NCBI GenBank assembly: GCA_002215645.1
Contig: NGFI01000004.1
Span: 62,001 to 126,000, forward strand
DNA length: 64,000 nt
From: Gemmatimonadetes bacterium 2013_60CM_65_52
Lineage (GTDB): Bacteria > Gemmatimonadota > Gemmatimonadetes > Gemmatimonadales > Gemmatimonadaceae
Direction of reading: 5' to 3'
The notes beneath the pieces are model-generated. The model had not been told where the DNA came from and made no database searches. It worked only from the letters and a program-made list of their open reading frames with translations. Positions 13,531 through 32,306 of the stretch are shown here, piece after piece; the first letter of the stretch is position 1; the number at the start of each line of letters is the position of its first letter. A program made the translations under genes and the position numbers.

Positions 13531-14056
13531 CCGCGCGGCCTTCACCCTCGTCGAGATTATGTTGGCGGTCGGCCTCGCCGCCGCCGCCGTCGTGATGAGC
13601 GCAATGCTCGTCCGCCAGCTGTTAACGTCGCATACCGTCCTTATGCGAGTAGGTGCTCGGGCCGACGCGGAGGCGAATGGTAGCCGTGAGCTCCGTGAAT
13701 TGTTCGGGCGAGCCGAATTGGGAACGGACACGACGCGGCAGTTTGTCGGTGACCAGCGAAGTGTGGCGTTTCCGACATGGTGCGATCGCGCGACCGGCTG
13801 GCTCGAGCACTGCATCGTACGCGTCTATCTCGACCACCGCGTGGACAGCACGAGCATCGAAGCTCATTTCGACGATGGCTCCGACCTCCGACTGCAGACA
13901 CTGACGGGATTGCTCGAGTTTCGCTACTACGGGCGCGTTGGTGAGGCGTTGGTCTGGAATGAGAAATGGAACAAGGGCCTGATTCCACCGGCCGGTGTGG
14001 GTCTCGTGCGTACTGGTGGAGATACCACCGTCCTGTATATCGGAGAGCGCGGGTGA
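13517..14056 (+). CDS. gspJ: minor pseudopilin, GspJ-like
   Basis: The 179-aa protein has the class III prepilin signal RAAFTLVEIMLAVGLAAAAVVMSAMLV and a beta-rich C-terminus that includes GLLEFRYYGR, typical of GspJ tip pseudopilins. It overlaps gspI by 14 bp and gspK by a GTGA junction. Confidence 0.8.
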   Translation: MQTINRAAFTLVEIMLAVGLAAAAVVMSAMLVRQLLTSHTVLMRVGARADAEANGSRELRELFGRAELGTDTTRQFVGDQRSVAFPTWCDRATGWLEHCIVRVYLDHRVDSTSIEAHFDDGSDLRLQTLTGLLEFRYYGRVGEALVWNEKWNKGLIPPAGVGLVRTGGDTTVLYIGERG

Positions 14057-14979
14057 CGAAAATTCGCGACAGGCGCGGGTACGCGACGCTGCTGGTGCTC
14101 TGGCTGCTCGTCATCGCCTCCAGTGTCGGGCTCTCAGCCGTGCTGACTGGGCGCGACGAATACCACTTCGCTCGCAACAGATTCGAGGCAGAACGCGCGC
14201 AGTGGCGGGCACACGGCTGTGCAAGCGAGGCGGAAGCGTCGGTCGACGAAATCCTCGAAGCCGCCTCGTCCAACGGAGAGCGAACGCGTAGATGGCGGCA
14301 CCTCGATACGCTCATCACGGTGCCCAATGCGGAGCGCTGGCGCTGCGTCGTTGTCGTGCGCGCTGCTGGCTCCCGGCTGAACATCAATGAGGCCACCGAG
14401 GAACAGCTGGCTCGCGCCCTAGCGCAAATCGCCGATACGCGCGGAAGCGCTGCACTGATTGACGCCATACTTGATTGGCGCGGAGCCCGTGATGATGCGC
14501 GTAACGGAATGGTTGATACCGCACGGTATCGAGGAGCCCATGGCCATGAGCCGCGAAAGGGGCCGTTTGCGTCCACCGCCGAACTGCATCGTGTCCGCGG
14601 CCTCGATTCAATTCAACGACTCGACGCACTGTTCGATGTCGAATCCGGTCGGGTGTCGCTTCCCAATGCTTCAGGCGAGGTACTCCTCTCGCTTCCCGGA
14701 CTCGCATGCGAGACGGTCGACCGACTCCTCGAACTTCGCGCCGATGGCCACGACGTCGAGGATCTCATGTCGCTGACGGGCCGCATTTCAGCCACAGCTG
14801 CGGAATCTCTCATGACGCGATATGCGGAGCTCTCACTGGCGACGACTCTCGAGCCCGACGCGTGGATCGCGACTGTAACTGCATCGAGTGGCCGGCCGGA
14901 GATATCGGTAGTCATCGAGCTCCGCCTCATTCGCAGAGGCAACAGCAGCGCCGTGGTTCGGAGGAGAACATGGTCGTGA
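14053..14979 (+). CDS. gspK: minor pseudopilin GspK
   Basis: The 308-aa protein has an N-terminal helix RRGYATLLVLWLLVIASSVGLSAVL that lacks the +5 Glu, as is characteristic of GspK. It also has the family hallmark LNINEATEEQLARAL (SAM-like helix-hairpin-helix domain) and a second copy near LLSLPGLACETVDRLLEL. GspK caps the pseudopilus tip. GTG 14053 overlaps the gspJ stop. The longer track ORF starts inside gspJ. Confidence 0.9.
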   Translation: MTKIRDRRGYATLLVLWLLVIASSVGLSAVLTGRDEYHFARNRFEAERAQWRAHGCASEAEASVDEILEAASSNGERTRRWRHLDTLITVPNAERWRCVVVVRAAGSRLNINEATEEQLARALAQIADTRGSAALIDAILDWRGARDDARNGMVDTARYRGAHGHEPRKGPFASTAELHRVRGLDSIQRLDALFDVESGRVSLPNASGEVLLSLPGLACETVDRLLELRADGHDVEDLMSLTGRISATAAESLMTRYAELSLATTLEPDAWIATVTASSGRPEISVVIELRLIRRGNSSAVVRRRTWS

Positions 14980-16214
14980 GCCGCCGGCGCTATGGAGTCA
15001 CGATTCATCGGTCGGAAGTCCGCATAGTCGGCGTTGTGCGTGGGCGGAGTGCCTGGACATGGCGCGGCGAGATCACGGACGGAGACACGGCGGGAGCTCT
15101 CAAGAACGCGCTGCTTCAGATGCCGCGGCCGTCGATTGGACGTCCGCTCGTGCGCGTTGGCGTTGGGGCGAGCGCCGCACAGCTGCGCACGATTAGCGGC
15201 CTTGCCGCTGAAGTCGAATCGACGCGCCGAACTGCGGCGGTCGCTAGCAACCCCGAACGATTCTTTCTTCGTTGGACGGGAGCAACGACCGTGTCGCCGG
15301 TCTTCCAGACCCCAGGCGGCGAGTACGTCGCCGCGGCCTTTGACGGAGCCGTCATCAACGCGTTGCGCGCCGCTCTTGCTGGCGCTCCCGTTCGAATCGA
15401 GGGCATGATCAACGTGGCGTCTGCGGTACCGTGGGGCGTCGGCGTGAACGCCAAAGACAACTCCATGCTCTGGTCCAGCATCGATGGTGAACTCAGGCTT
15501 CGTCTCTCGGCGGGAACGGTGACAGCGGCGCACCCGGTCGTGGGCGCGCTTGTCGACTCGATTGATGGCAACCCTCCGTCAACATCAACTTCCGGTGGAA
15601 ATACCGACTGGACAGAAGCGTTCTCCGTCGCGACGTGCAATCTCGAGGAACTGCCATATCTGCCAGGCGGAGCGCTGAGAGGGACATCGAATGCCGGCGC
15701 CCGTGCAACTCGTCTGGGAGTGAGTCTGGCCATGGCAGCGGCGATGGTAGCATGGCTCTTCGCGCCCGCCATGCTCGCGATGAGAAGCGCGGAACGTGCG
15801 GAAGCGCGAATGGTGGCGCTGACACGGACGCGTAGCCACGCGGCGCGACTCGCGGCCGATGCTCGCGATCTCGAACAAGCCGCGCGCCACGTCGATCAGT
15901 TTCGCGCAGGCAGACTCTCGATGACGTATCTGCTAGGTGCGATTTCTAGCGCCTTACCGGAATCAACCGCCGTCACGAGCCTCCGCATCGACTCCCTCGG
16001 CGGAACTGCGATTCTCCTCGCTCCGCGCGTCCTACCGGCCTTGCCGAAGCTCCTTTCGCTCCAACCGCTGGATGGTATGCAGGCGACTGGTCCCATTACT
16101 CGTGAAGCGTTCTCCGGGCGTGAGCTCGAGCGACTCTCCATCCGCTTTCGACTGCGGCGTCTCGGGACTGGCAGTATGCGTCCTTCAAAGCGGTACGGTG
16201 GAGCGCTCAATTGA
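14976..16214 (+). CDS. gspL: type II secretion protein GspL-like
   Basis: The 412-aa protein has a divergent actin-like N-terminal part (IGVNA-type PWGVGVNAKDN), one transmembrane helix (LGVSLAMAAAMVAWLFAPAML, residue ~250) and a PilN/GspL-type C-terminal domain containing YLLGAISSALPESTAVTSLRID. It links GspE to the inner-membrane platform. GTG 14976 overlaps the gspK stop and lies 9 nt after GGAGGAG. ATG 14970 is the alternative but is only 3 nt from that Shine-Dalgarno. Confidence 0.8.
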   Translation: MSRRRYGVTIHRSEVRIVGVVRGRSAWTWRGEITDGDTAGALKNALLQMPRPSIGRPLVRVGVGASAAQLRTISGLAAEVESTRRTAAVASNPERFFLRWTGATTVSPVFQTPGGEYVAAAFDGAVINALRAALAGAPVRIEGMINVASAVPWGVGVNAKDNSMLWSSIDGELRLRLSAGTVTAAHPVVGALVDSIDGNPPSTSTSGGNTDWTEAFSVATCNLEELPYLPGGALRGTSNAGARATRLGVSLAMAAAMVAWLFAPAMLAMRSAERAEARMVALTRTRSHAARLAADARDLEQAARHVDQFRAGRLSMTYLLGAISSALPESTAVTSLRIDSLGGTAILLAPRVLPALPKLLSLQPLDGMQATGPITREAFSGRELERLSIRFRLRRLGTGSMRPSKRYGGALN

Positions 16215-16816
16215 TGCACTGGACATCGCAAAAGGATCGTCGAGTCCTCGCTCTTGGCGGCACGTTGATCGCCCTCATCTTGATTCTCGGTCGCGGCATG
16301 CCGCTGTGGAGAGTGTGGGAAGTCGATAAGCGCGCGTCGGCTACCGGAATACTGAGGAGGGCCGCTGAATTCGATCGGACAACGAAAGAGTATCTCGCCA
16401 CTGCGGCGAATGCGGCCGAGTCACAGCGGCGCTACGGCAGCTCCTTGAGTGGCGTTCTACGTGCGATGTCACCAGTTGCTGCCGCGGCGACTCTTGCCAG
16501 TCTCACCGAGGACGTAGCGGAGAAGGCAGGAGCGAAGCTGACAAGCATCCAGCTTCGGCCGGACTCCGCCTTCCATGATCACTTTGCGCGCGTCGGCGTG
16601 CGATTCTCGGCATCAGCTGACGTAGAGGGTCTGACCGCACTGTTGGAAGGCCTGGAGACCAATGCAACGCTGCTTGCGATACGCGAACTATCGGTGACAC
16701 CGGCTGAGGTGGCTGGTTCTGATGCAAAGCCAGAGGTGCTGCGTTTCCAGGTCTTGGTGGAGGCGTTGGCCTTCGATGGAACATACGCTAGACCGGCCGC
16801 CGGTCATACCAAGTGA
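16214..16816 (+). CDS. gspM: type II secretion protein GspM-like
   Basis: The 200-aa protein has a short cytoplasmic tail, one N-terminal transmembrane helix (VLALGGTLIALILILGRG), a helical linker and a ferredoxin-like C-terminal domain (ADVEGLTALLEGLETN). This is the GspM/PilO pattern. ATG 16214 shares one base with the gspL stop (TGATG). It partners GspL in the inner membrane. Confidence 0.8.
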   Translation: MHWTSQKDRRVLALGGTLIALILILGRGMPLWRVWEVDKRASATGILRRAAEFDRTTKEYLATAANAAESQRRYGSSLSGVLRAMSPVAAAATLASLTEDVAEKAGAKLTSIQLRPDSAFHDHFARVGVRFSASADVEGLTALLEGLETNATLLAIRELSVTPAEVAGSDAKPEVLRFQVLVEALAFDGTYARPAAGHTK

Positions 16817-17310
16817 GCAAGTCTCTCGTCGACATGGCGATGAGTGCGATAGCCGTTGCGATGCTGACAAGCACAGCGATTCGAGCGAGAGATGCGCAGA
16901 GCGTGGCTCCGTCCCGAGTCGATATCAAGGAGAAACGGAACAAACTGGAGCCAACCACGTTCCTCGCGCACGTGGATCCGCCTATGGATACGCTTCTTAC
17001 ATCCCGCATCGTCAAGAACGACATGTTCCGCCTGGCGAACGCTCCAACGGCCGTTCGCTATGCTCTCGCGGTCGAGGGCGCCGGCGCTTCACTTCCCGCA
17101 GTCCCACGACCGCGACTTGCGGTGAAGGCCATCATCGGCGGTCCACCCTGGCAAGCAATGATCGAGGGCTTTCCCGGCCAATCGGTTGCCATTGTGCGTG
17201 CGGGACAGCTGGTAGGAGCGTTCACCGTTCGCACCGTGGGACGCGACTCCGTTGTCATTCTGGGCGCGGACACATCATGGACGCTGTCCCTCCACGGAGC
17301 TCGCCAATGA
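16813..17310 (+). CDS. GspC/PilP-like periplasmic T2SS protein
   Basis: The 165-aa protein has an N-terminal hydrophobic stretch (DMAMSAIAVAMLTSTAI) and a C-terminal beta domain (PPWQAMIEGFPGQSVAIVRAGQLVGAF, ending DSVVILGADTSWTLSL). This resembles the homology region of GspC or the PilP fold that contacts the secretin. It lies between gspM and gspD, and no other gspC is present in the operon. The family match is by pattern and position, not strong identity. Confidence 0.6.
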   Translation: MSKSLVDMAMSAIAVAMLTSTAIRARDAQSVAPSRVDIKEKRNKLEPTTFLAHVDPPMDTLLTSRIVKNDMFRLANAPTAVRYALAVEGAGASLPAVPRPRLAVKAIIGGPPWQAMIEGFPGQSVAIVRAGQLVGAFTVRTVGRDSVVILGADTSWTLSLHGARQ

Positions 17311-18842
17311 GGGATCATCTCATGGCTAGTTGGGTGGTAACGCTGTTTGTTGCTACGGCCGTGAGCGCGCCGTGCAACGCGCAGAAGACGACACAGAAGG
17401 TCGGCGCCAAGGACAGTGTGACCATCCGTGTGGTCAATACGGAACTTCGATCCGCTGTCCAGTTCATCGGTCAGTATCTCGATTGGCCTGTGATCTACAG
17501 CGGACCTGTCGGGGCGCAGGTGACACTGGAGACTCCTCATCCCGTGGCTCGCTCAACTGTGCCGACTCTGCTGCGCGGCTTGCTGGAGAGCCAGAGTTAC
17601 GAATTGATTCCCGATACGGCGGCGCAGCTTTTTCGCGCGCGCCCGCACGAGACTCCGAAGCCGCCGGTTGTCTCTCCAGGGGATGCGGGCTCTCGCCAGG
17701 CGACGCCCCCAGCGCAACCCGCGAGCAGCACGGAGCTGTTCGTCATTGGACTGAAGCACGCACGTGCCGCCGACGTTGCCGCTACCGTCAACGCGCTCTA
17801 CGGTCGGGGCACGTCCGACGGGAGCAGCGTGCGTCGATCGACGCTGAGTGACGAACTGCGGGCCAATCAAGTGCCTCCCGTGGGTGCACCTCCATCGCCG
17901 CCGATCACTATTACCCAGGGCGCGCAGCGCGGTTCGGCCTTCACGGGAGAAGTGATCATCGTGCCAGATCCTCGAGGCAACACGCTGCTGGTTCGTGCAA
18001 ACCGTACCGACTACACGCTCATCGAGCAGGTCGTCGGGAAGCTCGATGTCCGCCCATTACAGGTCTTGATAGAAGTGCTGATCGCCGAGGTGCGACGCGA
18101 CAGAAGTCTGACGTTCGGAGTGACTCTGAAACTGCCGAAGACAAACATTGCCGGCACAGAAAACACGACGATCGCTGGTAGTATCGATGGCCTTGGCAGC
18201 GGTGGAACCGGAGCCGGTGGCCTCGGCGAATTCGCGCTATCCGTCATGGGGATCGGCGGACTCGACTTGGAAGCAACGATCAAGGCTGCGGCCGGTCGTG
18301 GCGACGTATCGATTCTCAGCAGGCCAATCGTACTGACGGCGAACAATCAGGAAGCAGAGATCAACGTCGGGAGTCAGCGTCCCTTCGTTCAGGTGTCGCG
18401 GTCCTTACCCACGGACGCCGCAGTCCGCGATCAAGTCGTTCAATACAAGGATGTGGGAACCAAGCTTGCCGTGCGCCCCACCATCAGCGTGGACGGATCT
18501 GTTCAGTTGGAAGTGAAGCAGGAGGTCAGCAGTGCCACGACTGAGACAGCATTCAATGCGCCCGTGATTTCAACGCGCTCAGTGACGACGCAACTCCTCA
18601 TCCTTGACGGCCAAACGGTCGTTCTCGGTGGCCTTACGGACCGGCAGAGGGACGTTTCCCAGAGCGGCATACCCCTCCTTTCGAGCATTCCATTCATTGG
18701 CGGCCTCTTTGGAAGCGCCTCCCGGCGCACGACGGAGACCGAGCTCTTCATCTTCCTCACACCTCATGTCATTCGCTCCGACGACGACGCTGCCCAGCTC
18801 TCCGCTCCGCTGCGAGAGCGGGCAACTCGCTCACGCCCCTAG
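17307..18842 (+). CDS. gspD: type II secretion secretin GspD
   Basis: This outer-membrane secretin channel is 511 aa, shorter than typical GspD (~650 aa) and with fewer N-repeats. It has a signal peptide ending near SAPCNAQ, an N0-like segment (IRVVNTELRSAVQFIGQYLDWPV), one N1/N2 repeat (LFVIGLKHARAADVAATVNALYG, then NTLLVRANRTDYTLIEQV) and the secretin domain ending TETELFIFLTPHVIRS. ATGA overlap with the preceding gene fixes the start. Confidence 0.93.
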   Translation: MRDHLMASWVVTLFVATAVSAPCNAQKTTQKVGAKDSVTIRVVNTELRSAVQFIGQYLDWPVIYSGPVGAQVTLETPHPVARSTVPTLLRGLLESQSYELIPDTAAQLFRARPHETPKPPVVSPGDAGSRQATPPAQPASSTELFVIGLKHARAADVAATVNALYGRGTSDGSSVRRSTLSDELRANQVPPVGAPPSPPITITQGAQRGSAFTGEVIIVPDPRGNTLLVRANRTDYTLIEQVVGKLDVRPLQVLIEVLIAEVRRDRSLTFGVTLKLPKTNIAGTENTTIAGSIDGLGSGGTGAGGLGEFALSVMGIGGLDLEATIKAAAGRGDVSILSRPIVLTANNQEAEINVGSQRPFVQVSRSLPTDAAVRDQVVQYKDVGTKLAVRPTISVDGSVQLEVKQEVSSATTETAFNAPVISTRSVTTQLLILDGQTVVLGGLTDRQRDVSQSGIPLLSSIPFIGGLFGSASRRTTETELFIFLTPHVIRSDDDAAQLSAPLRERATRSRP

Positions 18843-18858: not shown

Positions 18859-19803
18859 GTGGACATGCTCGTCGGAACGTCGCCGCCGATGGCGCGAATT
18901 CGAGCCATTATCCACATGGTGGCACCCACAATATTGCCTGTTCTCGTTCAAGGCCCAACCGGTGCTGGCAAAGAGGTCGTTGCGGCGGCGCTACACGCGC
19001 TGAGCGGCCGCTCTGGACCTTTCGTCGCATTCAACGTCTGCGCAATCGGAGACGCGGTGTTTGAAGACGCGCTCTTCGGACACGTGCGAGGTGCGTTCAC
19101 GGGGGCAGTCGCGGAGTCGCCCGGATTACTCCGTGAGGCGAACGGTGGAACGCTCTTCCTGGACGAGATTGGCGGTCTGCAACTCGCATCACAGGCCAAG
19201 CTGCTCCGAGCGATCGAGACCAAGCGATTCCGACCCCTTGGAGCACGCATGGACGCAGCCAGTGACTTTCGCGTGATTGCCGCGACCAACGATCGCGTGA
19301 GCGACCTCGTAGCGACGGGTCGCTTTCGTGAGGACCTCGCGCATCGACTGGGAGCCGTTGTCATCGACGTACCGTCACTGCGCGAGCGAGCGTCAGACAT
19401 AGGTCTGCTCAGCGAACATTTTCTCTCACGCCTTCGCCCAGGATTGGGACTCGACGACCACGCACGAATCCTCCTCGAGGAATGCCAGTGGCCAGGCAAT
19501 GTGCGCGAGCTCCGACAGGTGTTGGAGAGTGCCTCTATGTGGTCCGGCAGCGTTATCACACGCGAGGCTTTGTTGGCGGCGCTGGCGTCCCGATTCGGCT
19601 CGCTCGCGCCTCCGAACACGTTCGTGCACGAAAGGGACACACTGAAGCAGGCGCTCGAGCGGAACAATTGGGACACGCGTGTAACCGCTCAGGAGTTCGG
19701 TGTTCATCGAACGACAGTGTATCGACTAATGCGACGATACGCACTATCGCCGCGTCAACGCGGCCGTCTGCTCAACGTCACGATCAGTTCATCATCAACA
19801 TGA
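18859..19803 (+). CDS. sigma54-interacting transcriptional activator (AAA + Fis HTH)
   Basis: The ~314-aa protein consists of a sigma54 AAA domain: Walker A GPTGAGKE, the sigma54-contact loop GAFTGA intact in GHVRGAFTGAV, Walker B GGTLFLDEIGG and sensor VIAATNDR. A C-terminal Fis-type HTH (VTAQEFGVHRTTVYRLMRRY) follows. There is no N-terminal sensor or receiver domain, so activity may be set by expression or a partner. It follows gspD by 16 bp. The start (GTG 18859 or ATG 18865) is uncertain. Confidence 0.88.
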   Translation: MDMLVGTSPPMARIRAIIHMVAPTILPVLVQGPTGAGKEVVAAALHALSGRSGPFVAFNVCAIGDAVFEDALFGHVRGAFTGAVAESPGLLREANGGTLFLDEIGGLQLASQAKLLRAIETKRFRPLGARMDAASDFRVIAATNDRVSDLVATGRFREDLAHRLGAVVIDVPSLRERASDIGLLSEHFLSRLRPGLGLDDHARILLEECQWPGNVRELRQVLESASMWSGSVITREALLAALASRFGSLAPPNTFVHERDTLKQALERNNWDTRVTAQEFGVHRTTVYRLMRRYALSPRQRGRLLNVTISSSST

Positions 19804-19822: not shown

Positions 19823-20431
19823 ATGCCGCATATCTCACAAGTAGTTAGCAGTCTTATGCGAGGCCTTGCCCTTGCAAGTCTGCTGCTTGGCTGCGCACGC
19901 CAATCATCGAGCGACGACCTGTTTCCACTGCTGTTGCCGAGAGCGAAGCCGCAGGCACCGGAGGTGCCGTTGGAGAGCCTAACCGTGCGAGATGGCAAGG
20001 ACGGAGCGAGAGCACCAGAGGCACCCGACAGCGCCGTCATGGCCGCAACATTGGCGTTGCTCCGGGATGGGCGCGCGAAGCCTCTCACCCAGGCGCAACG
20101 AGCCGATACGATCGCGGTCGTGGCGGCGTTCAGCTTGGTATCCAGCGCGGCACGCGCCGATTCGGTCGACTCCGAGTTCATCATGGAAGTCGTTGGCTAC
20201 CTAATCTATGGCCGCCCCTCAGGTCAGCCGCGGTTGGGGCGGTTCGTCAGCGAGCTGCGCACAGAGCGCCGCGTGTATGTCGCCTACCGAAGTGTGGACG
20301 CATGGCAGGTAGCAGCGAATCAGTCGCGGCCCTTCAAGTTCCCGGTGGCGATACTCGCGGAATCAGCGTCGTTTGCGTTGTCCTCCAACGACCAGGATGC
20401 CATTAGGCGTCTCGTCCGCACCGACAGGTAG
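19823..20431 (+). CDS. predicted lipoprotein of unknown function
   Basis: The ~202-aa protein carries a lipoprotein signal (MRGLALASLLLGC, Cys lipidation site), then a Pro/Arg-rich linker and a mostly helical domain with no recognised motif. It is 19 bp behind the sigma54-type regulator in the gsp transcription direction, so it may be an accessory of the secretion system or a pilotin-like factor; that is only inference. ATG 19856 is an alternative start that gives a more classical signal peptide. Confidence 0.6.
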   Translation: MPHISQVVSSLMRGLALASLLLGCARQSSSDDLFPLLLPRAKPQAPEVPLESLTVRDGKDGARAPEAPDSAVMAATLALLRDGRAKPLTQAQRADTIAVVAAFSLVSSAARADSVDSEFIMEVVGYLIYGRPSGQPRLGRFVSELRTERRVYVAYRSVDAWQVAANQSRPFKFPVAILAESASFALSSNDQDAIRRLVRTDR

Positions 20432-20601
20432 TCGCAGCCGGTTGCGCCACATGTGCAGGGCTTCATGCGAATAGCGCAAACGCAAGCCACGATGCGCTAC
20501 GCAATGCGTTGTCCCACAACGACTTTCGGAAAGCCACCACAGGCATAACGCGTGCTTTCGCTGCGATCCGGGTATCCCGCCACCAATCTCCGCCCGGACC
20601 G

Positions 20602-23600
20602 ATGCCATCGTCAACTCTCCACGGTAGTGCGCGCACTGTAGGCGTCCGCCACGCGGTCCGCGCCAGATCGCATCACGCAAGCGCCGCGATCATGCTGGGA
20701 CTCTTGCTCGCCGGAATCGGATCCGCGAGCGCACAGTCGGCAACGTTCATCACGCCGAGCGGTACTCATTTTTCAACCGGTCAGCAGAACATCAGCGTGC
20801 GCCTGTGCGCATCGGCGACCCCGGAAGACGTTTCGATTCAGGTGAATAGCAGCGTTTACACCGCGAGCCAATCGGCCACGACCGGGTGTTCGACGGCTTA
20901 TACTAGCCTTGCGTCGGTTACAGCGATCTATCTCAAGCGGGGAGCCAACGCGATTTCATTTCGCTCATCCAACTCTGCGATCGGCGAGTACATTACCGCA
21001 ACGGCGACCTACTACAACGACAATCCGCCCACGCCAGCGCCGTCCGTATCAGTACTTCCAAAGGCGATCGTGCAGAATGGGAGCGATACCGTCCTTTTCA
21101 GTGTGACGAACAATTCGGCTAATGCCCTGAGCTATACATTCTCTGCGAGTTGCGCCGGCGTCACATGCGGTCAGTATCCCTGGGCCAGTAACATCGCGGG
21201 AAACGCAATGTTTGTGGTGAAGGTGCCCGTTTCGGTAGGAATGACGGGCGGTACCATTACGCTCAGCTCGCACAGCATGGAGGCGCAGAACGACAATAGT
21301 CCGACGACGAGCGCGACGAGCACTATCAGTACAACGCTGCCACCATTCTACTTTAAGGTTGCTGCGCTAGACAGCGTCTGGTACCAGGGGCAAGCAGCGC
21401 AGGGCAGCGCCACCTTCACACTCAGGAACAACGGGAACACGACAGCTGACGTTCATTGGAGTGTCTCATGTCCTCCCGGAAGCGCCTCGTATACCTTCTC
21501 ATTTTGCGGCGCCAGTGGTTGGAGCGCGGACTACGGCATGAGTGGCTATCTCACATCAGTGACTCCGGGCGCAGGCTATACCGGATACGTAAGCGCTAAG
21601 TCGGGCCCCAATGTGGGCGATCGTGTTCGAGCGGCGGCTTATCTCTACGATGTGAACGGGACAATACGGGATAGCGCGTATGCATACGTCGTGTCGCTCG
21701 CAGCTCACGGCGTGGCTGTATCTCCGCACGATACCACCCATACCGCCCTCGTTAATCGCACGGTCTCCGACACATTTACCGTCAGATCAACCGGGGCAGC
21801 CACAGCAGGGAACGTCATCGCGTTGCAAGCCTCCTGTGGTACGTTCACACAGTGTCGCGTGTCGAGTGACACGTTGCGTCTGGCGCCGGGCCGATCGACG
21901 ACCATGACCGTCAGCTATCAGACCGGAGCGACGCGCAACGTGCAGAACGTCATCCGGCTGATCGCAACTGAGCAGCGACAGCTCTGGGACGATTGGTGTG
22001 GCTGCTACTACACCGTGTGGTACGCGGCGGACTCCGGTAAGCACCGTGTGACGGTGGGAGAGTTCAAGGCACCCACCATCGCGGTCGTGCCGAGACAGGA
22101 CAGCCTGCTCCGCACGCGCCTGTTCAACGCCATCGTGACGGTGTGCGACTCCGATGGTACCGTGCAGGGCATTCAGGCACAGTTCAACGGTGTGCAGCTG
22201 CCCCCGGTCTTCTCCAACACAACGGTCTCGGGATGCTACACGGCCAAGGAAGGCAGGTTCGCGCTCCTGGCACAAGCGGAGACGAACATATTCAACATCA
22301 CGGCCAGCGACGGCTACAACACGACGACGGTCGCGCCGACGTTCATCTATGATCCGGCGTGGGAACACACGCCTGGTGTCACCGCCGATCTTCCCAGTGT
22401 ACGCACGCCTGGCTTGCAAGCGCGTGCCGACACGTTTCGCGTGAGAAACACGGGGAGTTACGCCGAGACGTACAGCGTATTAGCGGATTGCACAGCGCTC
22501 GGCGTGGCATGCGCGGTACCAGCGAGCATCAATGTGCCGGCCGGGTCAACCGAACGCGTCATTGTCGCGTATACGCCACCAGCATCCGGAACGGCGATGC
22601 CCCTCAAGCTGCACGCGATCTACAACGGAAGCCACACCGTGCGACGAGATTCCGCAACGTCGCTGATCACGATCGGAGGTGGGCAGCCACCACAGATAGC
22701 GCTGACGCCGATCGACGGAAGCAGTACGACGTCCAGTGCCGTCGCGGTCAGTGTCAGTTGGTGTGATCCTGACGATGTGCTGGCGAGCCATCAAGTACTC
22801 GTGAACGGTCGCCCGATTGCCGATACGTTCGCGACGCAAACGCAGGCGGGCTGTGTCGAGGCGGCCACATCGACCGCGACCGCGACGCTGTTGCCGGGCC
22901 AGAATCTCATCGTGGCGCAGGCCAGCGATGCAGCCGGCCACATGGTGAGCATCACCAACGCAATCACGTACACGGCGCTATTGTCCGCGCTCGCTCCGGC
23001 CGTAACGCCTCGCAACACGACCATGTATGCGAAGCGCGGTGCGACGAACTCGACGCTGTACACCGTCACCAACGCCGGCTCGTACGCGACCACTTACGCA
23101 TATGCCTCGGCATGTGGAACGTACGCTGACTGCACGATCTCCAAGCCGCTCGCGTCACTTCAGCCGGGAGCTCAGGACACGGTTCGCGTGTGGTATACGG
23201 CTCCCATCACCTTCGGGACGACTACCCAGGCCAGCTTGACGGCGAGCACGGCCTCGTGGGTGGGTCCGCTTGCGGCGGATACCGCGCGGATTACACTGGC
23301 AACGAGAACGTCGGCGGCCAGCTACCAGGCCCAACTCGCACCCAATACGGGCGCTTATTGGAACTATCCTGGGTGGAATAGCGGCGGGTTCTTTACCAAT
23401 GTGACCAACCTCGGAGCGGATACCGCGAACTATCGGTATACCATCACGTCGCCGAGTTCGCAGGTGATTCCGCCGTACTCCCAGGACATGCACCAGCTGG
23501 ACGTCGTGCCACCTGGGCAAGCGAGACGGTTTTGGATCAACTTCTGGGGCGATTGCAACAATTGCACTGATCCCGTTTACGTGAACATCGCTGCAGGAGA

Positions 23601-26600
23601 CAACGGCGATTCCGTCCGTACGGCCGGTACCTATTACATCTCTGGGTATGCGCCCACATTCGGCATTGCGCTCATAAAGCCGCCGCCGAAGATCGATTCA
23701 CTCGCCGGCACGATTCACGAGATCGTCTACCGAGTCACGAACAAGGGCGGGAACTACGGCGACACCATCCGCGTGCACTTCACTTGTGACGGGTACGTCA
23801 CCAACTGTCGTGGTGATCAATCCGGCACGGCAGATCAATGGCACATGGTCGCCTCCGGCGATACGGCCACAGCCAAGGTGCTGTACGATCTCACCGCAGG
23901 GACGACCACGGGCTACGTCTACATTGCGGCTCGTTCCTCGAAGGACGCTTTGCAGAGGGACTCGGCCGCCGTGATGGTGACGACGAACGCGAACCAGGCG
24001 ATCGTGGCGCTCACGCCGACATCGATTCAGATCACGCCGCCCCCGGGGGTGAGCATGGTGCAGAAGTTCACCATCACGAACAAGGGCATCGGCGACAACC
24101 CGTCAGATGCGTTCACATACTCGATCGCCTGCAATGGGCCGATTACGAACTGCACGGCAAAGAGCGGACAGACCAACCAGCTGGCACGTGACAGCTCGTA
24201 CGTCATCCTCGTTCCCTACACGACTCCGATCACCCTCGGGGATGTTGGAAGCATCTCGATCTCAATCAAAAGTGTGAAGGATGGCAGGGTGACGGCATCG
24301 TCTACTATTTCAGTAGCAGCAGGGAGTAGTTCGCTGCTTACGGTTGCCGCATCAAACGTGAATCCAGGCACGCAGGTGGAGCGGAGCGCCTGCCTGACCG
24401 TGGCCACGGGATCCAACGCGGCGTACGAGTGTGGCGGCCTGCGGATAGCACATCCTCTGCCGGCGGTCACCACGATGAGCAAGACGCGAGCTCCGACACT
24501 GACCTTTGTCAGCAGTCATGCGGATCCTGTTGCATTGATCGCCGCGAACATCACGACACGGATCGGCGCGTCTCCCGTTGGAGGCATCAACGCCACGGTC
24601 ATCGTGATGAACATGGTGGACACCACCACCCGCGGGTCTGTGACGAGGCACTTCACGTGGAGATCAGACTGGCCGGATAGCACGCCGAGGAGAATCGTTA
24701 TTCCCGTCCGCGAGGACGATGTTCACCTGCTGGGAGGTTCCAGCCAGGACGCCGGAGCGTTTCGCTACCGACTGGAAGTGAAGGACAGCGCGAACACCTA
24801 TCCAGTGGCGAGCGATACCGGCTCGTTCGTCATGATCGATCGACGAAAGAGTCCGTTCGGGAGCGGCTGGTCCCTGGATGGTCTCGAGGAAATTGTGATG
24901 GTTAGTGCCACCAAGAGGCTGTGGGTCGGTGGCGATGGCACCACGCGGTCGTACACATTCAGTGCCACGAATTCTCTTGGCGACGTCTATATCGCCACGC
25001 CGCGCCTGGACCGTGCCGACACGCTCGTCGTGTTGCCGGGCGGACAGGGATACGTCCGTCGACTTCCCAACGGCGCTGCCGTTCGATTTGATGGATACGG
25101 CCTGCATGCGTCGACGACCAGCCGGCAGGGACACGTCACATCCTTCTTCTATACTCCGGGGACACGAAACTTAACTGACATCTACCTGCCGATTCCCGGT
25201 GGCAAACGCTCATATACGTTCAGTTACGGGACCGACGGGAAACTACAAACCGTGACCGTGCCGTACACAGGGGCGACAACACGCTCGGTCACCGTGGCTC
25301 AGACGAATGGATGGGTGACGAGCTTCGTCGGCCCCGATACCACCCACGTGGATTTCGGCTACGACGGTGCCCTGACCAGCGGTGCCACGGCGCGGCATCT
25401 TGCCTGGCGCACCAACCGCCTTCGCGATGCGACCTTCTTTACCTACGATCCCGCGAGCCTACTGCTGACCGCCGAGCTGGATATGAGGCGAACGGACGGT
25501 CTCTTCGCGCCACGAATCGTCCATCGATTTTGTCCGGCGGAATCACGGAGCATCTCAGACTGTGGCGGCCAGCCCGATGCGACGCCGCAGTTGCTCTCCA
25601 AGGTCTATACCCTCTATGACGGTCCGCGCGACAACGTCGCGGATGTGGCGGACACGACGGTGTTCTATCAGGGGCGCTACGCGACCGTCGATACCATCGT
25701 GAATGCGCTTGGGTATCGAACACAAATCCTCAGGAACGGCGCATTTCCCCTACTGCCCGGGTCGCTCATCGAGGCGAACGGCCACCGAGTGGATCTGTAC
25801 TACAACAGCCGAGGCCTCGACAGTTTGCGTGTGGATCGGAATCCTCTTGGCGACGGACAGAACGCCACTACCTCGTACTCGTGGCACCCCAAATGGAATC
25901 AGCCCACGACTATTGTAGGGCCGACCGGCGAGCGGGTGGATTTCGCGTACGATACCGGCGCGCCGAATCGGCTCTGGACGCAGGATGGCCGCGGTGACAG
26001 CACGCGCGTGAATTTCCAGTATAACGGCGCCAACCAAGTCAGGTACATCCTGCCTCCAGGAGGCAGCGAGCGATTCGACTACGACGGATTGGGAAATCTT
26101 CTGCGTGAAACGACGGCAAACGGTTTCGTAACGACCTATCACACGGACTCGATCGGGCGCGTCGACAGCGTGTACACGCCGATCGATGGGACGCGCCGTC
26201 GGGTGACTGCGACGACGTACGATGTGATGGATCGCGTGCGAGGCACGACTGACTTTGGTCCATCGCTACCCGTGAGCGTCGGCGTCTTCTCTGCGACCGA
26301 CTCCCTCGTCTTGGCCGTTGTCAACGACTACGACCTGGAAGGGCGAATGACGTACAACAAGCGTACGTCCACTCCAGACCTATCCGGTCAGCTGCTCACG
26401 ATGTCTTGGGGGTATGACGCGGCCGGTCGGCGCCGGAGCGCCGTTGGTGTCGCCGGCGTGTCGGAGAGCTGGCTGTACGATCCTGCGGGCAATCCCGTCG
26501 TGTGGACCACGAAGCGCAACAAGTCGGTGTCGATGTCCTACGACGCCCTGAACAGGCTCGCAACGAGAACGACGCAGGCCGACACCGTGCGCTCGATCTC

Positions 26601-28890
26601 CGGGTTCCCGCTCCTGTTTCCGCACTATGCTACCGGCTTTGCCGCCGATCTTGTCGTTGCTCCACACGCGATACCACCTGCCTACATCACTCCCACCGAA
26701 ACGGCGTCGTTCACGTATGACACGCTAGGCAACATTGCCACCGCGCTCAACTATGCCGCTCGCGTTGCAAGGGCTTATTCCCCGAATGGGGCGCTGAAGG
26801 TGGACTCGATGCAGGTCGCCGTCGTGGATACGATCGAGACGCCGACCAACCGATACGGATACCACTTGTATCGGTTGACCTACGCGTACGATCTGAGCGG
26901 ACGTCGGATATCGCGGACAGACAACATCCCGGGGTGCTCCACGGCCTGCGTGCAGCGGTATCACTACATGCAATTGAGTGGCGTGCTGGATTCGACCTAC
27001 GATGGCAATGTCGATTTCGGCGGCGTCAAGGCGCTCGGCTTCGCCTATGATGCCGCTGGTCGCGCAATCACGAGGTCCTGGGACGGTGGGCGCTCGGTCT
27101 ACTCATTCGGCTACGATCCTGACAGCCGGCTGACCTCGCGAACGGTCTCGGAACAGACGTCCTTGCCTACCGTCCTTAGTGACGTTCTGACTTACGATCA
27201 GGCCGGTCGTGTGATCGATGCAAGCATATCGTCGCAAATTCTTCCAGCCGACCATCGAGTGCAGGCCTACAATGGACTCGGCGCGCTGTTCGCGATGCAG
27301 AGCTATACGGGTGGTGGCGGCGTGCTCGATGAGTACCAGTCGGACGCCATGGGGAACACCGTCAAGCACTATCGAAACATCGGCAACGGTCGTGACACGA
27401 CGACCAGCAACTACATAAGTGAGCGCTTGACGTTCACGAGACAGCGAGGCGGAGGTGAGGGAGGTGTCGCACCGTCGATCACGACACGCGACTCCACCAT
27501 GAACTCCTATGACCAATCGGGCAGCCTAACAGACGCGTTCACTGGCCTGCAGAAATGGAATGGCGCGGCCTGGGACTACTACAACACTGGCACGACCTGG
27601 ATCAAGAATGTGTACGACGTTGGCGAGAGGCTTCGCGTCGCGCAACGGACCTACATGGAGGACGTCGCACATCCTCGAACCGCATTCGTGGAATACCGCT
27701 ACGACGCGCTCGGACGTCGCGTGCTCACACGCACGCGATGGGACCAGTTCTGCACACCGTCGGCTATCGATGGCAAGTGCTTTCCCACCATCGACCGTAC
27801 CATCTGGGACGGCGATCAAATTCTCGCAGAGCTACGCAGCATTGTGTATCGAGCAACCATCGACTCGATACCCTATGTTTGCGGGCCCGACGATGCATGG
27901 GAGAGTCAAGTGTGCCGCGCACAACGACAGGCCCCAACGCGATTCACGCAGCAGGGACTTGGCAGTGCGCTCGAATCGGAATACACGAATGGTCTCAACT
28001 TTGGCGGCTCCGTTCGGTATACGCACGCGGGGGGCATTGACGAGCCGGTCGCGCTCTGGAAGAGCGGGATCTCCGTCAGTGTTGTGCCGCACAAGAGCTG
28101 GCGTGGTGTCTACGAAGCCGGGTCATTCCTGGGGTCGTCCAACACCGGAATCAACTGGGTGGGACGGACACTGGATGCGTTTCACGCGCCGGATGCACGG
28201 GCTACGCCGATCCAACAATCGCACTGGTTGGGGAGCGTCATTGATGGCGGGGCGAATGCATCCGGGCTAGTGTATCAGCGAAACCGCTACTACGATCCCA
28301 GCACCGGACGGTTCACGCAGGAAGATCCCATCGGGCTAGATGGGGGAATGAATATGTACGGGTTTGCGTCTGGCGACCCGGTGAACTTCAGCGACCCGTT
28401 TGGCTTGAAAGTCTGCTATCAAGGATCAGGGGCCGAAATCGCAGACTTGAAGAAAACGACCGAGGCCGCGACGAACAGTTCATTTACGCTTGATAAGAGC
28501 AATTGCGTGAACGCCAGCAGCGTAAGGTCTGGAGGAGACAAGAGCTTCGATGGCCTACGGGCTGGGTTTCGGGAGCTGATTGACTCGGATGTGACGTTTG
28601 GTATCGCGTTCGGCGCTGAATACGAATCGCCGCAACGTAGCGCCTACAAGATCAGCATTTTTGTCGACGCGGACGCCTTGGCTTATTCGACGGGTTCGTG
28701 GGGTAAGTGCGATGGTGGACGCGCCGCCTTCAGCTTTCCTCAAGTGATGGCGCATGAGCTCACTCATCACTTCCCGGTTGCTCGTGGCGGAAGAATGACG
28801 AGTGGGACGGTTGGCGAGAAGAATGCAGTGAAGGGCGGAGACAACATCTTCAACGCAGCGAGCGGGAGACCTTTGCGATGCCGATACTGA
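20602..28890 (+). CDS. giant secreted RHS-repeat polymorphic toxin with HExxH tip
   Basis: The ~2,762-aa protein starts with a Sec signal (IMLGLLLAGIGSASAQ). Residues ~40-1350 are tandem Ig-like modules, each with a close Cys pair (SCAGVTC, SCGTFTQC, ACGTYADC, TCDGYVTNC, ACNGPITNC). An RHS/YD-repeat shell follows (many YDxxGR units) and closes with the core RNRYYDPSTGRFTQEDPIG...DPFGL near residue 2600. The last ~160 residues are a variable tip with VMAHELTHHF, a zinc-metallopeptidase signature. It lies directly after the T2SS operon. The start is uncertain: ATG 20602 is preferred over the track's TTG 20509. Confidence 0.85.
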   Translation: MPSSTLHGSARTVGVRHAVRARSHHASAAIMLGLLLAGIGSASAQSATFITPSGTHFSTGQQNISVRLCASATPEDVSIQVNSSVYTASQSATTGCSTAYTSLASVTAIYLKRGANAISFRSSNSAIGEYITATATYYNDNPPTPAPSVSVLPKAIVQNGSDTVLFSVTNNSANALSYTFSASCAGVTCGQYPWASNIAGNAMFVVKVPVSVGMTGGTITLSSHSMEAQNDNSPTTSATSTISTTLPPFYFKVAALDSVWYQGQAAQGSATFTLRNNGNTTADVHWSVSCPPGSASYTFSFCGASGWSADYGMSGYLTSVTPGAGYTGYVSAKSGPNVGDRVRAAAYLYDVNGTIRDSAYAYVVSLAAHGVAVSPHDTTHTALVNRTVSDTFTVRSTGAATAGNVIALQASCGTFTQCRVSSDTLRLAPGRSTTMTVSYQTGATRNVQNVIRLIATEQRQLWDDWCGCYYTVWYAADSGKHRVTVGEFKAPTIAVVPRQDSLLRTRLFNAIVTVCDSDGTVQGIQAQFNGVQLPPVFSNTTVSGCYTAKEGRFALLAQAETNIFNITASDGYNTTTVAPTFIYDPAWEHTPGVTADLPSVRTPGLQARADTFRVRNTGSYAETYSVLADCTALGVACAVPASINVPAGSTERVIVAYTPPASGTAMPLKLHAIYNGSHTVRRDSATSLITIGGGQPPQIALTPIDGSSTTSSAVAVSVSWCDPDDVLASHQVLVNGRPIADTFATQTQAGCVEAATSTATATLLPGQNLIVAQASDAAGHMVSITNAITYTALLSALAPAVTPRNTTMYAKRGATNSTLYTVTNAGSYATTYAYASACGTYADCTISKPLASLQPGAQDTVRVWYTAPITFGTTTQASLTASTASWVGPLAADTARITLATRTSAASYQAQLAPNTGAYWNYPGWNSGGFFTNVTNLGADTANYRYTITSPSSQVIPPYSQDMHQLDVVPPGQARRFWINFWGDCNNCTDPVYVNIAAGDNGDSVRTAGTYYISGYAPTFGIALIKPPPKIDSLAGTIHEIVYRVTNKGGNYGDTIRVHFTCDGYVTNCRGDQSGTADQWHMVASGDTATAKVLYDLTAGTTTGYVYIAARSSKDALQRDSAAVMVTTNANQAIVALTPTSIQITPPPGVSMVQKFTITNKGIGDNPSDAFTYSIACNGPITNCTAKSGQTNQLARDSSYVILVPYTTPITLGDVGSISISIKSVKDGRVTASSTISVAAGSSSLLTVAASNVNPGTQVERSACLTVATGSNAAYECGGLRIAHPLPAVTTMSKTRAPTLTFVSSHADPVALIAANITTRIGASPVGGINATVIVMNMVDTTTRGSVTRHFTWRSDWPDSTPRRIVIPVREDDVHLLGGSSQDAGAFRYRLEVKDSANTYPVASDTGSFVMIDRRKSPFGSGWSLDGLEEIVMVSATKRLWVGGDGTTRSYTFSATNSLGDVYIATPRLDRADTLVVLPGGQGYVRRLPNGAAVRFDGYGLHASTTSRQGHVTSFFYTPGTRNLTDIYLPIPGGKRSYTFSYGTDGKLQTVTVPYTGATTRSVTVAQTNGWVTSFVGPDTTHVDFGYDGALTSGATARHLAWRTNRLRDATFFTYDPASLLLTAELDMRRTDGLFAPRIVHRFCPAESRSISDCGGQPDATPQLLSKVYTLYDGPRDNVADVADTTVFYQGRYATVDTIVNALGYRTQILRNGAFPLLPGSLIEANGHRVDLYYNSRGLDSLRVDRNPLGDGQNATTSYSWHPKWNQPTTIVGPTGERVDFAYDTGAPNRLWTQDGRGDSTRVNFQYNGANQVRYILPPGGSERFDYDGLGNLLRETTANGFVTTYHTDSIGRVDSVYTPIDGTRRRVTATTYDVMDRVRGTTDFGPSLPVSVGVFSATDSLVLAVVNDYDLEGRMTYNKRTSTPDLSGQLLTMSWGYDAAGRRRSAVGVAGVSESWLYDPAGNPVVWTTKRNKSVSMSYDALNRLATRTTQADTVRSISGFPLLFPHYATGFAADLVVAPHAIPPAYITPTETASFTYDTLGNIATALNYAARVARAYSPNGALKVDSMQVAVVDTIETPTNRYGYHLYRLTYAYDLSGRRISRTDNIPGCSTACVQRYHYMQLSGVLDSTYDGNVDFGGVKALGFAYDAAGRAITRSWDGGRSVYSFGYDPDSRLTSRTVSEQTSLPTVLSDVLTYDQAGRVIDASISSQILPADHRVQAYNGLGALFAMQSYTGGGGVLDEYQSDAMGNTVKHYRNIGNGRDTTTSNYISERLTFTRQRGGGEGGVAPSITTRDSTMNSYDQSGSLTDAFTGLQKWNGAAWDYYNTGTTWIKNVYDVGERLRVAQRTYMEDVAHPRTAFVEYRYDALGRRVLTRTRWDQFCTPSAIDGKCFPTIDRTIWDGDQILAELRSIVYRATIDSIPYVCGPDDAWESQVCRAQRQAPTRFTQQGLGSALESEYTNGLNFGGSVRYTHAGGIDEPVALWKSGISVSVVPHKSWRGVYEAGSFLGSSNTGINWVGRTLDAFHAPDARATPIQQSHWLGSVIDGGANASGLVYQRNRYYDPSTGRFTQEDPIGLDGGMNMYGFASGDPVNFSDPFGLKVCYQGSGAEIADLKKTTEAATNSSFTLDKSNCVNASSVRSGGDKSFDGLRAGFRELIDSDVTFGIAFGAEYESPQRSAYKISIFVDADALAYSTGSWGKCDGGRAAFSFPQVMAHELTHHFPVARGGRMTSGTVGEKNAVKGGDNIFNAASGRPLRCRY

Positions 28891-29453
28891 TGGTGTTGAG
28901 CCGGGGGGAAGGGAAAGCTCATCGCCGCGTGAGCATTGTTGCGGTGTCAGTTCTTCTCTACGGCGGTGAAGTCTTGAGCCTGGGTTGCTCAAAGTCCGAC
29001 ACTCGGAATCCTGATACAGCGCGTATCGCTACGCCAGGAATCTCTAGCTGCCCGACCTTCGCTGGTTCGACTTCGGGGTGGAGAAGAAGTCAAACCAGCG
29101 ACGGTCGGGCGAGTCTGTTGATGCCTAGTACGTACGTCCCGGTCCGTATTGATTCGGGGCAAATGTGGGCCAGCGACGTGGCTAGCGTTGGCTACAGGGT
29201 CGGCGAACCGAGAGTTAGAGATACCATGCCAGTGAGTTCTCCCGAGAATCAGCTCTGTACGGAGAGGACTGGCGACACGGGGCGCCTGAGCTACTACCAT
29301 GCACAGGCTGCAACGGGCGAGGGACACTATCTCCAAGCGCTCTTTTCAATGGCCGATGGAACGACCATTCGCCTTATTGGTTTCGTGCGAGATCCTGCTG
29401 ACGGCACCGAACTTCTTGCAATTGCACGTGGCGTTAGGCTTGCAGAGAAGTGA
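28878..29453 (+). CDS. candidate immunity lipoprotein for the RHS metallopeptidase tip
   Basis: The 191-aa protein overlaps the RHS gene end by 13 bp. It has a signal helix with lipobox (VAVSVLLYGGEVLSLGC) followed by a soluble domain of unknown family. A gene translationally linked to the variable tip of an RHS protein is where immunity genes are normally found, and a lipoprotein would neutralise a toxin in the periplasm. Function is inferred from position and localisation only. Confidence 0.6.
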   Translation: MPILMVLSRGEGKAHRRVSIVAVSVLLYGGEVLSLGCSKSDTRNPDTARIATPGISSCPTFAGSTSGWRRSQTSDGRASLLMPSTYVPVRIDSGQMWASDVASVGYRVGEPRVRDTMPVSSPENQLCTERTGDTGRLSYYHAQAATGEGHYLQALFSMADGTTIRLIGFVRDPADGTELLAIARGVRLAEK

Positions 29454-29510: not shown

Positions 29511-30153
29511 CTAGTGGTCCTGGCTACTAGTCGTATGCGCTCTCAGTTCGCTTTGCGGTTGGCGCGCGGCGGTAGCGCGGAGCGTCGTGGCGAACAGTTG
29601 GTCGTGGACGAAATCCATGCTCCAGCGCTGATGCCGACCCGTCGGTACCGGCGCCGGGCCGCGATGTAACGCCATGTGCTTCCGCCGCCGCACACGCATC
29701 CGGACCTGAAGCCCCTCCAGCCGGTACAGACGGCGGACCCGCTTCTTGTTGATGCGCCAGCCTTCGCGCCGCAGGAGCGTGTGAATGCGATTGTAGCCGA
29801 ACCGCGGCCGCGCCATCGCGAGCTCGCGGATCCGCATTCGTAGCGCGCTCTGATCCCGCGTCGCGCTCGGCTTGTACCACGCCGTTCGAGAGAAACCGGC
29901 GTCACCGGTTTTCGGATGGTCTCCGTGAGAATGCGTTTACCGAGCGTCAGATCGGCGACCAGGCGCTTCAGCCGACTGTTCTCGTCCTCGAGCTGGCGGA
30001 GCCGTCGGAGCTCACTCACGCCCAGACGCGCGTACTTCTTCTTCCAGACGTAGAAGGTCGCCTCACTCACCCCGACCTGCCGACAGACGTCGGCCACGGC
30101 TGTCCCGCTGTCGATCTGCCGGAGCACGTCTCGCTGAATTTCGACCGCTTCAT
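29511..30153 (-). pseudogene. IS3-family transposase orfA/orfB remnant
   Basis: OrfA begins MKRSKFSE at ATG 30153, but one base appears to be missing before the continuation VLRQIDSGTAVADVCRQVGVSEATFYVWKKKY, which is in another frame. The HTH and leucine-zipper (LRQLEDENSRLKRLVADL) are intact. OrfB follows in the other frame (KTGDAGFSRTAWYKPSAT, then RPRFGYNRIHTLLRREGW, then RWSMDFVHDQLF). It ends shortly after the first catalytic Asp, losing the rest of the DDE domain. Confidence 0.8.
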
Positions 30154-30439: not shown

Positions 30440-31450
30440 GTGTGGGACGGTAGCGCCATCGCGCACGAGGACAGGCGTCCCTACCAGGACGGAGCGATCA
30501 CTACGCCAAATTTCAACAGCGTAGACTACGTACATGGAGTCGAGAAGGATCGGCCTTTCGCGACCCTGGATGCGAGCCTGGCCGCAACATCGTCATCAAC
30601 CACTCGCGCAGTGAGCTGGACGCTGCGCGGCATGGCGGAGGCGAGCACGTTGGCGGATGGATCAGCTGGCGACTGCAGTCTCGGGATTGGTGCGTGCACG
30701 TACATCGCATGGATAGATGGGAAGGCGATCTATAGCCGCCCGACTCCAGCGAATACGGCAACTGGCGGCTACTCGTATCTCTGGTCGGGAAGCCTGCTAC
30801 AGGATCAACAAGACAAAAGCGGGCAGCTCTTTCGGCGAAACCGGTATTACGATGCGCAGAGTGGGAGGTTCACGCAGGAAGACCCCATCGGCCTCGCCGG
30901 CGGCATGAACCTCTATGGCTTCGCGGGTGGAGACCCAGTCAATTTCTCAGACCCACTCGGGCTCACGAGCTGTCCGCCAATGTGCGGAATCGGCAGTTTC
31001 AACCTGGCGGCTGATATGTGGGATCGCGGCGTCGAAGCGGTTAAGCAGGCAGCCAAGAGCGTCGTGATATACGCGAAGGGGAATCTTGGAGCGGCTTCTG
31101 GAGAGGTCGAGGGAGATTTGGCTGGTGGCGCGTCCGCTCATTTTGGTGGAGAGGCCAGCAGCGAGGCTCTGGGTATTGAAGCCGGCGTGCGAATTGATGT
31201 TGCCCGCCCAGCAGCCGGCGGTCATCCGGTCAGCTTCAACAGCCCTGGTCTGCGAGTTGCGCCCGGCGTAAGAGCATCAGTAACTGCGACAGTGTCGGGG
31301 GATGCTCAAGGTGGGCTCAAGGTCAACTCCTTTGGAATCGCGATAGGAGCCAGTGAGGGCCGCTTTGGCCCTGGCAACGTGGGAGGGGTAAGCACCCCAG
31401 TTAACTCTCTCCCGTCAGCGTGTACCGCGAGCGATTGTGCGCGGCCATAG
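30440..31450 (+). CDS. displaced RHS C-terminal tip cassette (5'-truncated)
   Basis: The 336-aa frame starts inside RHS sequence. RTVWDGSAIAHE parallels RTIWDGDQILAE of the upstream RHS protein, and recognisable RHS-like codons reach back to about 30360. It holds a complete core RNRYYDAQSGRFTQEDPIG...DPLGL and a distinct ~165-aa Gly/Ala-rich tip (GEVEGDLAGGASAHFGGEA). No start codon, signal or shell of its own is present. It looks like a silent toxin tip that could replace the active one by recombination. The tip family is not recognised. Confidence 0.65.
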   Translation: MWDGSAIAHEDRRPYQDGAITTPNFNSVDYVHGVEKDRPFATLDASLAATSSSTTRAVSWTLRGMAEASTLADGSAGDCSLGIGACTYIAWIDGKAIYSRPTPANTATGGYSYLWSGSLLQDQQDKSGQLFRRNRYYDAQSGRFTQEDPIGLAGGMNLYGFAGGDPVNFSDPLGLTSCPPMCGIGSFNLAADMWDRGVEAVKQAAKSVVIYAKGNLGAASGEVEGDLAGGASAHFGGEASSEALGIEAGVRIDVARPAAGGHPVSFNSPGLRVAPGVRASVTATVSGDAQGGLKVNSFGIAIGASEGRFGPGNVGGVSTPVNSLPSACTASDCARP

Positions 31451-31525: not shown

Positions 31526-31762
31526 ATGTATTGGCTATTTGTAGGAGTGGTCGTCCTGTACTACGGTATTGGCTACCGCCTCACAAACATCGCGTTTCGC
31601 TATCTTCGCTCCGATGTGCGCGATGTCTCATTCCTGGCGATCTATGATCCTTCGAATTTTCGACCCGAAGGCGAAGAGGCGCGAAGGCGAGCCCTACATT
31701 TTTGGTGGATTGGTTTTGCTGTCGTGGTTGCGGTTGTCATTACTTTGGTCGCCGCGTCGTGA
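31526..31762 (+). CDS. small two-helix membrane protein, possible immunity protein
   Basis: The 78-aa protein has one hydrophobic helix at each end (MYWLFVGVVVLYYGIGY and HFWWIGFAVVVAVVITLVAA) and a charged middle. It lies 75 bp after the displaced RHS tip. A membrane immunity protein is plausible by position. Nothing in the sequence shows function directly. Confidence 0.5.
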   Translation: MYWLFVGVVVLYYGIGYRLTNIAFRYLRSDVRDVSFLAIYDPSNFRPEGEEARRRALHFWWIGFAVVVAVVITLVAAS

Positions 31763-31799: not shown

Positions 31800-32306
31800 G
31801 TGCGTATATACATGCTGGCTGCCTTATTGGCCGTGCACACCCTGGCCGCGTGCGAACATACGCCACCGAGTATCTCGGAAAGGCGTCCTGAGCATGCCAT
31901 CGGGAGCGCATTCGAGAGTGGAACAGTTGGTGAGGCAGCGAGTAAGTACGTGCTCACGATGACGGCGGTGCGCGTGTGGTATGCTATCGTGGGCCAATTG
32001 CGCAGTGAAGCCGAACGCACTGGCACCAGCATTTCTCTCGACTTTCCCCTTGAGGGCGGCATTGACGCACAAGCGCGGCAGGTTGAAGCCATGCCCCTAC
32101 TTCGGACCGTGCTGCTTAGGCGAGGTATGACACCTAGACAATTTGTGATCGTCACTACAGCAGTTGGTGCCGTGCGGTTATCGCTCACGCTCGTCGATTC
32201 GCTGGGACCTGCAGGTCGACCGACCAATATCGGGCAAAGCGTCTCCGACTTTGCGCGGCTTCATCGGCGCGAAATCGACAGCCTTGATGCATCCCTCAGG
32301 CCATAG
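31800..32306 (+). CDS. predicted lipoprotein in the RHS island
   Basis: The ~168-aa protein has a lipoprotein signal (VRIYMLAALLAVHTLAAC) and a helical domain of unknown family, with RTVLLRRGMTPRQFVIVTTAVGAV in the middle. GTG 31800 is preferred to ATG 31812 because it adds an Arg to the n-region; the track start at 31569 is far too early. It may be a second immunity or adaptor gene for the displaced tip. Confidence 0.55.
   Translation: MRIYMLAALLAVHTLAACEHTPPSISERRPEHAIGSAFESGTVGEAASKYVLTMTAVRVWYAIVGQLRSEAERTGTSISLDFPLEGGIDAQARQVEAMPLLRTVLLRRGMTPRQFVIVTTAVGAVRLSLTLVDSLGPAGRPTNIGQSVSDFARLHRREIDSLDASLRP

Follow-up and report, generated by a model that had tools for sequence, protein, structure and literature searches.

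Type II secretion systems (T2SSs) are usually viewed as general enzyme exporters, and how they recognise their substrates is poorly understood. Among rearrangement hotspot (RHS) proteins, the Rhs effectors of type VI secretion systems (T6SSs) comprise an RHS shell, a core ending in DPxGL and a swappable tip with an immunity protein, while WapA of Bacillus subtilis is a Sec-exported giant YD-repeat protein with a variable tip and an immunity gene. T2SS-dependent RHS activity has a single known precedent: in Xanthomonas perforans, the supernatant activity of BcnA, an RHS bacteriocin of 1,398 aa with an immunity gene, is lost in an xpsD (gspD) mutant (PMC7259588). Zhang et al. 2012 list RHS toxins with Sec signals under ‘T2SS’, by which Sec export is meant, in a text that contains neither the word GspD nor the word secretin (PMC3482391). 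Here we describe a 64,000-nucleotide window (C10:62001-126000 of a 14-contig, 4.2 Mb genome) of Gemmatimonadetes bacterium 2013_60CM_65_52, in which a giant RHS gene follows a T2SS operon, and show that this arrangement recurs among Gemmatimonadota, bacteria that live in soil.

On the plus strand of the window, 11 gsp genes (9659-18842) are followed by a sigma54 activator gene, a lipoprotein gene and the RHS gene (20602-28890). The combination of an RHS toxin with a candidate immunity gene is shared with BcnA, of whose activity secretin dependence is a feature; BcnA, however, belongs to a five-open-reading-frame (ORF) locus without its own T2SS and uses the general Xps system, and neither a sigma54 activator nor an immunoglobulin (Ig)-like region has been described for it. 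RHS repeats, C-terminal tips (in their set, HExxH Tox-HopH1-like and NlpC/P60 types among others) and immunity neighbours are common ground with the toxins of Zhang et al. (PMC3482391). WapA differs in its Gram-positive host, where no outer membrane secretin is needed, and the T6SS Rhs effectors in their VgrG/PAAR delivery without a signal peptide, whereas the genome studied here lacks a T6SS sheath. The canonical single-operon T2SSs (Xcp, Xps, Out) have the same gspC-M parts, but the module described here has another gene order, an activator at the operon end and a linked RHS substrate. No description of a linked, dedicated T2SS-RHS module was found in the searched open-access PMC literature. 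Judged by the features tested, the module belongs to two known kinds, T2SS and RHS polymorphic toxin, while their fixed union, together with likely sigma54 control, appears to be new.

GspD relatives were collected in 99 genomes of the family, their surroundings were fetched and 49 further loci from a GTDB search were added (G and L numbers denote genomes and loci of this survey); RHS cores were mapped with a profile built for this analysis. The GspD tree separates, with 100/100 support, a clade with the gene order gspE to gspD (E..D), usually followed by the activator, from other lineages with the order D-E. Among loci with informative flanks, RHS lies within 13 kb in 26/29 cases for the E..D clade and in 2/13 for the D-E lineages (p = 5e-6; kinship of the genomes inflates significance, so that p-values here and below are too small), and the linked RHS gene often begins about 1 kb behind gspD. 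An earlier sequence-only reading of the window had suggested looking in relatives for signal-peptide RHS genes that repeatedly adjoin gspE-D; such adjacency is clearly present, and it is not due to chance. At the genome level, RHS is found in 20 of the 21 family genomes with an E..D T2SS versus 19 of the 78 without (p = 3e-9). Across the phylum (298 genomes), where lineage was assigned by a bit-score cut of approximately 500 rather than by tree, the corresponding figures are 33/34 and 38/264 (p = 7e-23), with RHS in 10/62 genomes that have only another T2SS-like GspD (p = 1e-15 versus 33/34) and in 28/202 without any. The distance from gspD to the RHS core is 2-17 kb in eleven genomes outside the home family, and the block of gspD, activator and RHS is common to two families, with GspD identity down to approximately 45%. 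The closest GspD relatives in the GTDB species collection are from Gemmatimonadota metagenome-assembled genomes (MAGs), with one very weak match from Dadabacteria; a copy from an ‘Acidobacteria’ MAG (L152) is very similar to that of a Gemmatimonadetes MAG (L137) and probably represents a misbinned contig. Separately, an RHS gene stands just upstream of two D-E operons (G042:C47, L105; G096:C31, L108), a possible independent association.

The T2SS operon itself has the order gspE-G-F-H-I-J-K-L-M-C-D, all on the plus strand, with the core components E, F, G and D in one operon. These are the ATPase gene gspE (9659..11137; Pfam T2SSE, 1.4e-127), the major pseudopilin gene gspG (11145..11591, in a frame that opens at 10998; Pfam T2SSG, 2.7e-36, and N_methyl), the platform gene gspF (11607..12830; Pfam T2SSF, 3.4e-37) and gspD (17307..18842), which encodes a secretin with a signal peptide (Secretin, 2e-46; TIGR02517, 2e-79). 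The minor components supported by Pfam are gspM (16211..16816; T2SSM_b, 1.2e-10) and, with a weak T2SSK_1st match and homologues, a gspK-like open frame (13966..14979) whose true start lies later, while the gspH-like pseudopilin gene (12827..13153) is supported by N_methyl and its position. Genes without a Pfam match were assigned by position and by homologues in relatives: the gspI-like (13150..13530) and gspJ-like (13517..14056) pseudopilin genes, with homologues at the same position, and a gspC-like gene (16813..17310), whose homologues are 33-52% identical. Position and homologues also identify a gspL-like open frame (14706..16214), again with a later true start. A prepilin peptidase (PF01478) is encoded elsewhere in the same genome (C2:300869-301213).

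The RHS gene (20602..28890, +; ATG start at 20602) encodes a protein of 2,762 aa with RHS_repeat, YD repeat and Rhs_assc_core matches. A Sec-type signal peptide (20602-20733; ...ASAAIMLGLLLAGIGSASAQ) is followed by an Ig/CARDB-like region to approximately 24950 and by RHS/YD repeats to 28407. The Rhs_assc_core (28258..28407, +; TIGR03696, 4.6e-18) ends in DPFGL, the expected tip release site, and behind it lies a variable, metallopeptidase-like toxin tip of 160 residues (tip 1; 28408..28887, +) with the HExxH motif HELTHH and homologues in G021 and G017. The tip may be related to the Tox-HopH1/M91-like metallopeptidases, for which HExxH and a later E/N are expected; the motif occurs in 5/6 homologues, without a Pfam match. 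The next gene (28878..29453, +) overlaps the RHS gene; its product is lipoprotein-like and exported, a candidate immunity protein for tip 1 whose homologues lie beside those of the tip. ORFs and Pfam/NCBIfam matches thus confirm the layout given by the sequence-only reading, namely a gsp operon, activator, lipoprotein and signal-peptide RHS protein in one direction; that reading had overlooked a displaced cassette, an IS3-type orfA and a sigma54 motif, and the link it drew extends beyond this one locus.

The displaced cassette begins with an RHS fragment (30440..31450, +) made up of a core (30803-30964; TIGR03696, 5.7e-17) and a second tip (tip 2; 30965-31447); the cores at 28258 and 30803 are the sole RHS core matches in the genome. 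In L125, behind the closest related T2SS, a full-length RHS protein carries a tip that shares 43% identity with tip 2. That tip is followed immediately by a homologue (E = 4e-12) of the small membrane protein encoded at 31526..31762 (+), the candidate immunity protein for tip 2, and then by one (E = 4e-13) of the lipoprotein that forms the third gene of the cassette (31812..32306, +). Because the order of the tip 2 cassette recurs on this full-length RHS protein, the window points to tip replacement: a newer tip appears to have displaced an older one, the old cassette being kept downstream. An IS3-type transposase orfA remnant (29543..30127, −; HTH_Tnp_1, 3.7e-16) lies between the two cassettes. 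Neither the two tips nor their partners matched any Pfam family, and AlphaFold models of the tips were too poor to use (mean pLDDT 39 and 38 for tips 1 and 2, respectively).

With RHS/YD repeats, a core ending in DPxG, a variable tip that is swapped among relatives, displaced cassettes and partner genes that move with the tip, the protein is, as predicted from these features, a true polymorphic toxin. The pair formed by tip 1 and the protein at 28878-29453 occurs in three genomes, recurring in G021 (tip 80% and partner 50% identical) and G017 (53% and 23%) as orphan cassettes in genomes that both have the same T2SS lineage; the tip 2 cassette of tip, membrane protein and lipoprotein keeps its order in L125, making two genomes in all. 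Other linked tips include M23, NlpC/P60, M15 and Tox-REase-7 domains. The genes directly behind linked tips encode exported or membrane proteins in 38/56 cases versus 141/399 background ORFs (p = 7e-6, with heuristic localisation calls). Together with the several tips that are wall-cutting peptidases, this predominance of exported or membrane-bound partners suggests the envelope as the site of action for many of the linked toxins.

In G023 (C2:578345-591778; L075 and L076), 11 orphan RHS tips and their partners stand in a row directly behind gspD, among them M23, M15-like, deaminase-like and metallopeptidase-like tips; the array is a rich source of candidate toxin-immunity pairs. By eye, a hydrophobic C-terminal segment seems common to the tips of L142, L071/L072, L091, L102, L093 and L100, behind which polytopic membrane proteins are encoded; these tips may constitute a single family of toxins that act on membranes, paired with membrane immunity proteins.

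The activator gene (18859..19803, +; Sigma54_activat, 5.9e-52) holds the same place in relatives' loci. Its product has an AAA+ interaction domain with GAFTGA and a Fis-type helix-turn-helix, without a receiver domain, and RpoN is present in the same genome, as is characteristic of sigma54 enhancer-binding proteins. A sigma54 −24/−12 promoter-like motif, AGGCATAACGCGTGC (20541..20555, +), lies approximately 60 nt upstream of the RHS start. The strict core pattern GGCAY-N6-TGC was found around the start of 11 of the 22 linked RHS genes, where 2% per gene, or 0.4 of 22, would be expected (p = 1e-13), mostly approximately 50-65 nt upstream where the start is clear; a looser sigma54 scan was uninformative alone. 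The same pattern precedes six gspE genes of the E..D lineage and none of the other lineage. We infer, as the simplest reading, that the activator ending the T2SS operon would switch on the toxin gene. The lipoprotein gene between activator and RHS (19823..20431, +; lipobox LLGC), of which no homologue was found in the other surveyed loci, could encode a pilotin or be a remnant.

Taken together, the region is quite probably a polymorphic-toxin module, in which a T2SS of a Gemmatimonadota-specific lineage is dedicated chiefly to the RHS toxins that it would export. In such a module, the activator and RpoN would switch on the RHS gene, Sec would move the protein into the periplasm and the RHS shell would form there around the tip. 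A GspE-driven pseudopilus would then push the RHS protein out through GspD, either to the cell surface or into the medium, and the Ig-like repeats could serve as an adhesin or stalk. The tip would be freed at the DPxGL site and mostly target the envelope of neighbours (periplasm, wall or membrane), while the partner protein would protect sister cells. We see an even chance that the module goes further and represents a distinct T2SS subtype that evolved as a dedicated antibacterial weapon, exporting sigma54-controlled RHS proteins and bringing mainly envelope-acting tips to competitors with no contractile apparatus. The giant RHS proteins are perhaps additionally displayed on the surface.

The dedicated T2SS proposed by the sequence-only reading is partly supported, in that the adjacency recurs and the genome lacks a T6SS sheath, and several points weigh against it besides the kinship of the surveyed genomes. 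Three E..D copies have no RHS nearby, although two of these are second copies in genomes where RHS adjoins the other copy. The question of whether RHS genes lie mostly away from gsp operons has a two-sided answer: RHS adjoins almost every E..D T2SS, yet many of the family's RHS genes are found elsewhere, with only 17/78 RHS clusters within 25 kb of an E..D T2SS (short contigs hold many of the rest). The near-complete, RHS-positive genomes G009, G032 and G020 have no detected T2SS-type GspD, so RHS export must differ there, and the G009 RHS protein bears a signal peptide. Signal-peptide and localisation calls are heuristic throughout. Finally, nucleases or deaminases are present among the linked tips and would have to enter the cytoplasm; envelope action is not a rule.

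The occurrence of signal-peptide RHS proteins in genomes without a T2SS-type GspD would also fit a shared accessory island, on which the two are merely neighbours, the T2SS exporting general enzymes while RHS exits otherwise or stays in the envelope. The G+C content of approximately 0.60 inside the module against 0.65 outside, and the presence of more than one module copy in several genomes, are compatible with this. The order of gspD, activator and RHS is nevertheless kept over two families, with the GspD divergence given above, where random islands would break up, and an E..D T2SS almost never occurs in a genome without RHS, which makes the island explanation unlikely. Alternatively, RHS could be a T2SS-exported surface or matrix protein, an adhesin or scavenging enzyme rather than a weapon. 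Its large Ig/CARDB-like region agrees with such a role, and peptidase tips could digest environmental polymers. We nevertheless consider it rather improbable, given that the core is constant while its tips are hypervariable, that tips and partners move as pairs, that cassettes have been displaced and orphan tips form arrays, and that some tips are of the Tox-REase-7 or deaminase-like kind.

Most studied Gram-negative Rhs toxins use a T6SS, and one encoded elsewhere might be considered, as the sheath protein VipB is present in 22/99 family genomes. VipB was not found in the genome studied here (with E. coli as positive control), it shows no association with RHS in the family (p = 0.81) and the sheath is missing in 31/39 RHS-positive family genomes. 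The RHS protein has a signal peptide, and the Pfam/NCBIfam search revealed no PAAR or VgrG domain on it. We rejected T6SS delivery on the absence of VipB and its independence from RHS; it is hardly credible here. TcB-type partner domains likewise gave no Pfam/NCBIfam match on the RHS protein or on the genes at 16722-20428 and 28878-32303.

A T2SS lineage tied to one substrate class provides a direct handle on substrate choice, and the module also lets the passage of very large folded proteins through a secretin be studied. It further suggests that a phylum that is common but little studied possesses an antibacterial weapon, and that a route for RHS toxins exists in diderm bacteria without a T6SS. 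In G009, which is near-complete and has neither a T2SS-type GspD nor a T6SS, three RHS genes lie on C24 (L122), the first with a signal peptide. Upstream of the module in the window, a large ORF that runs divergently from the gsp operon (7288-9282, −) resembles an AAA-type regulator, and another (6533-6979, −) resembles a PIN-domain (VapC-like) toxin.
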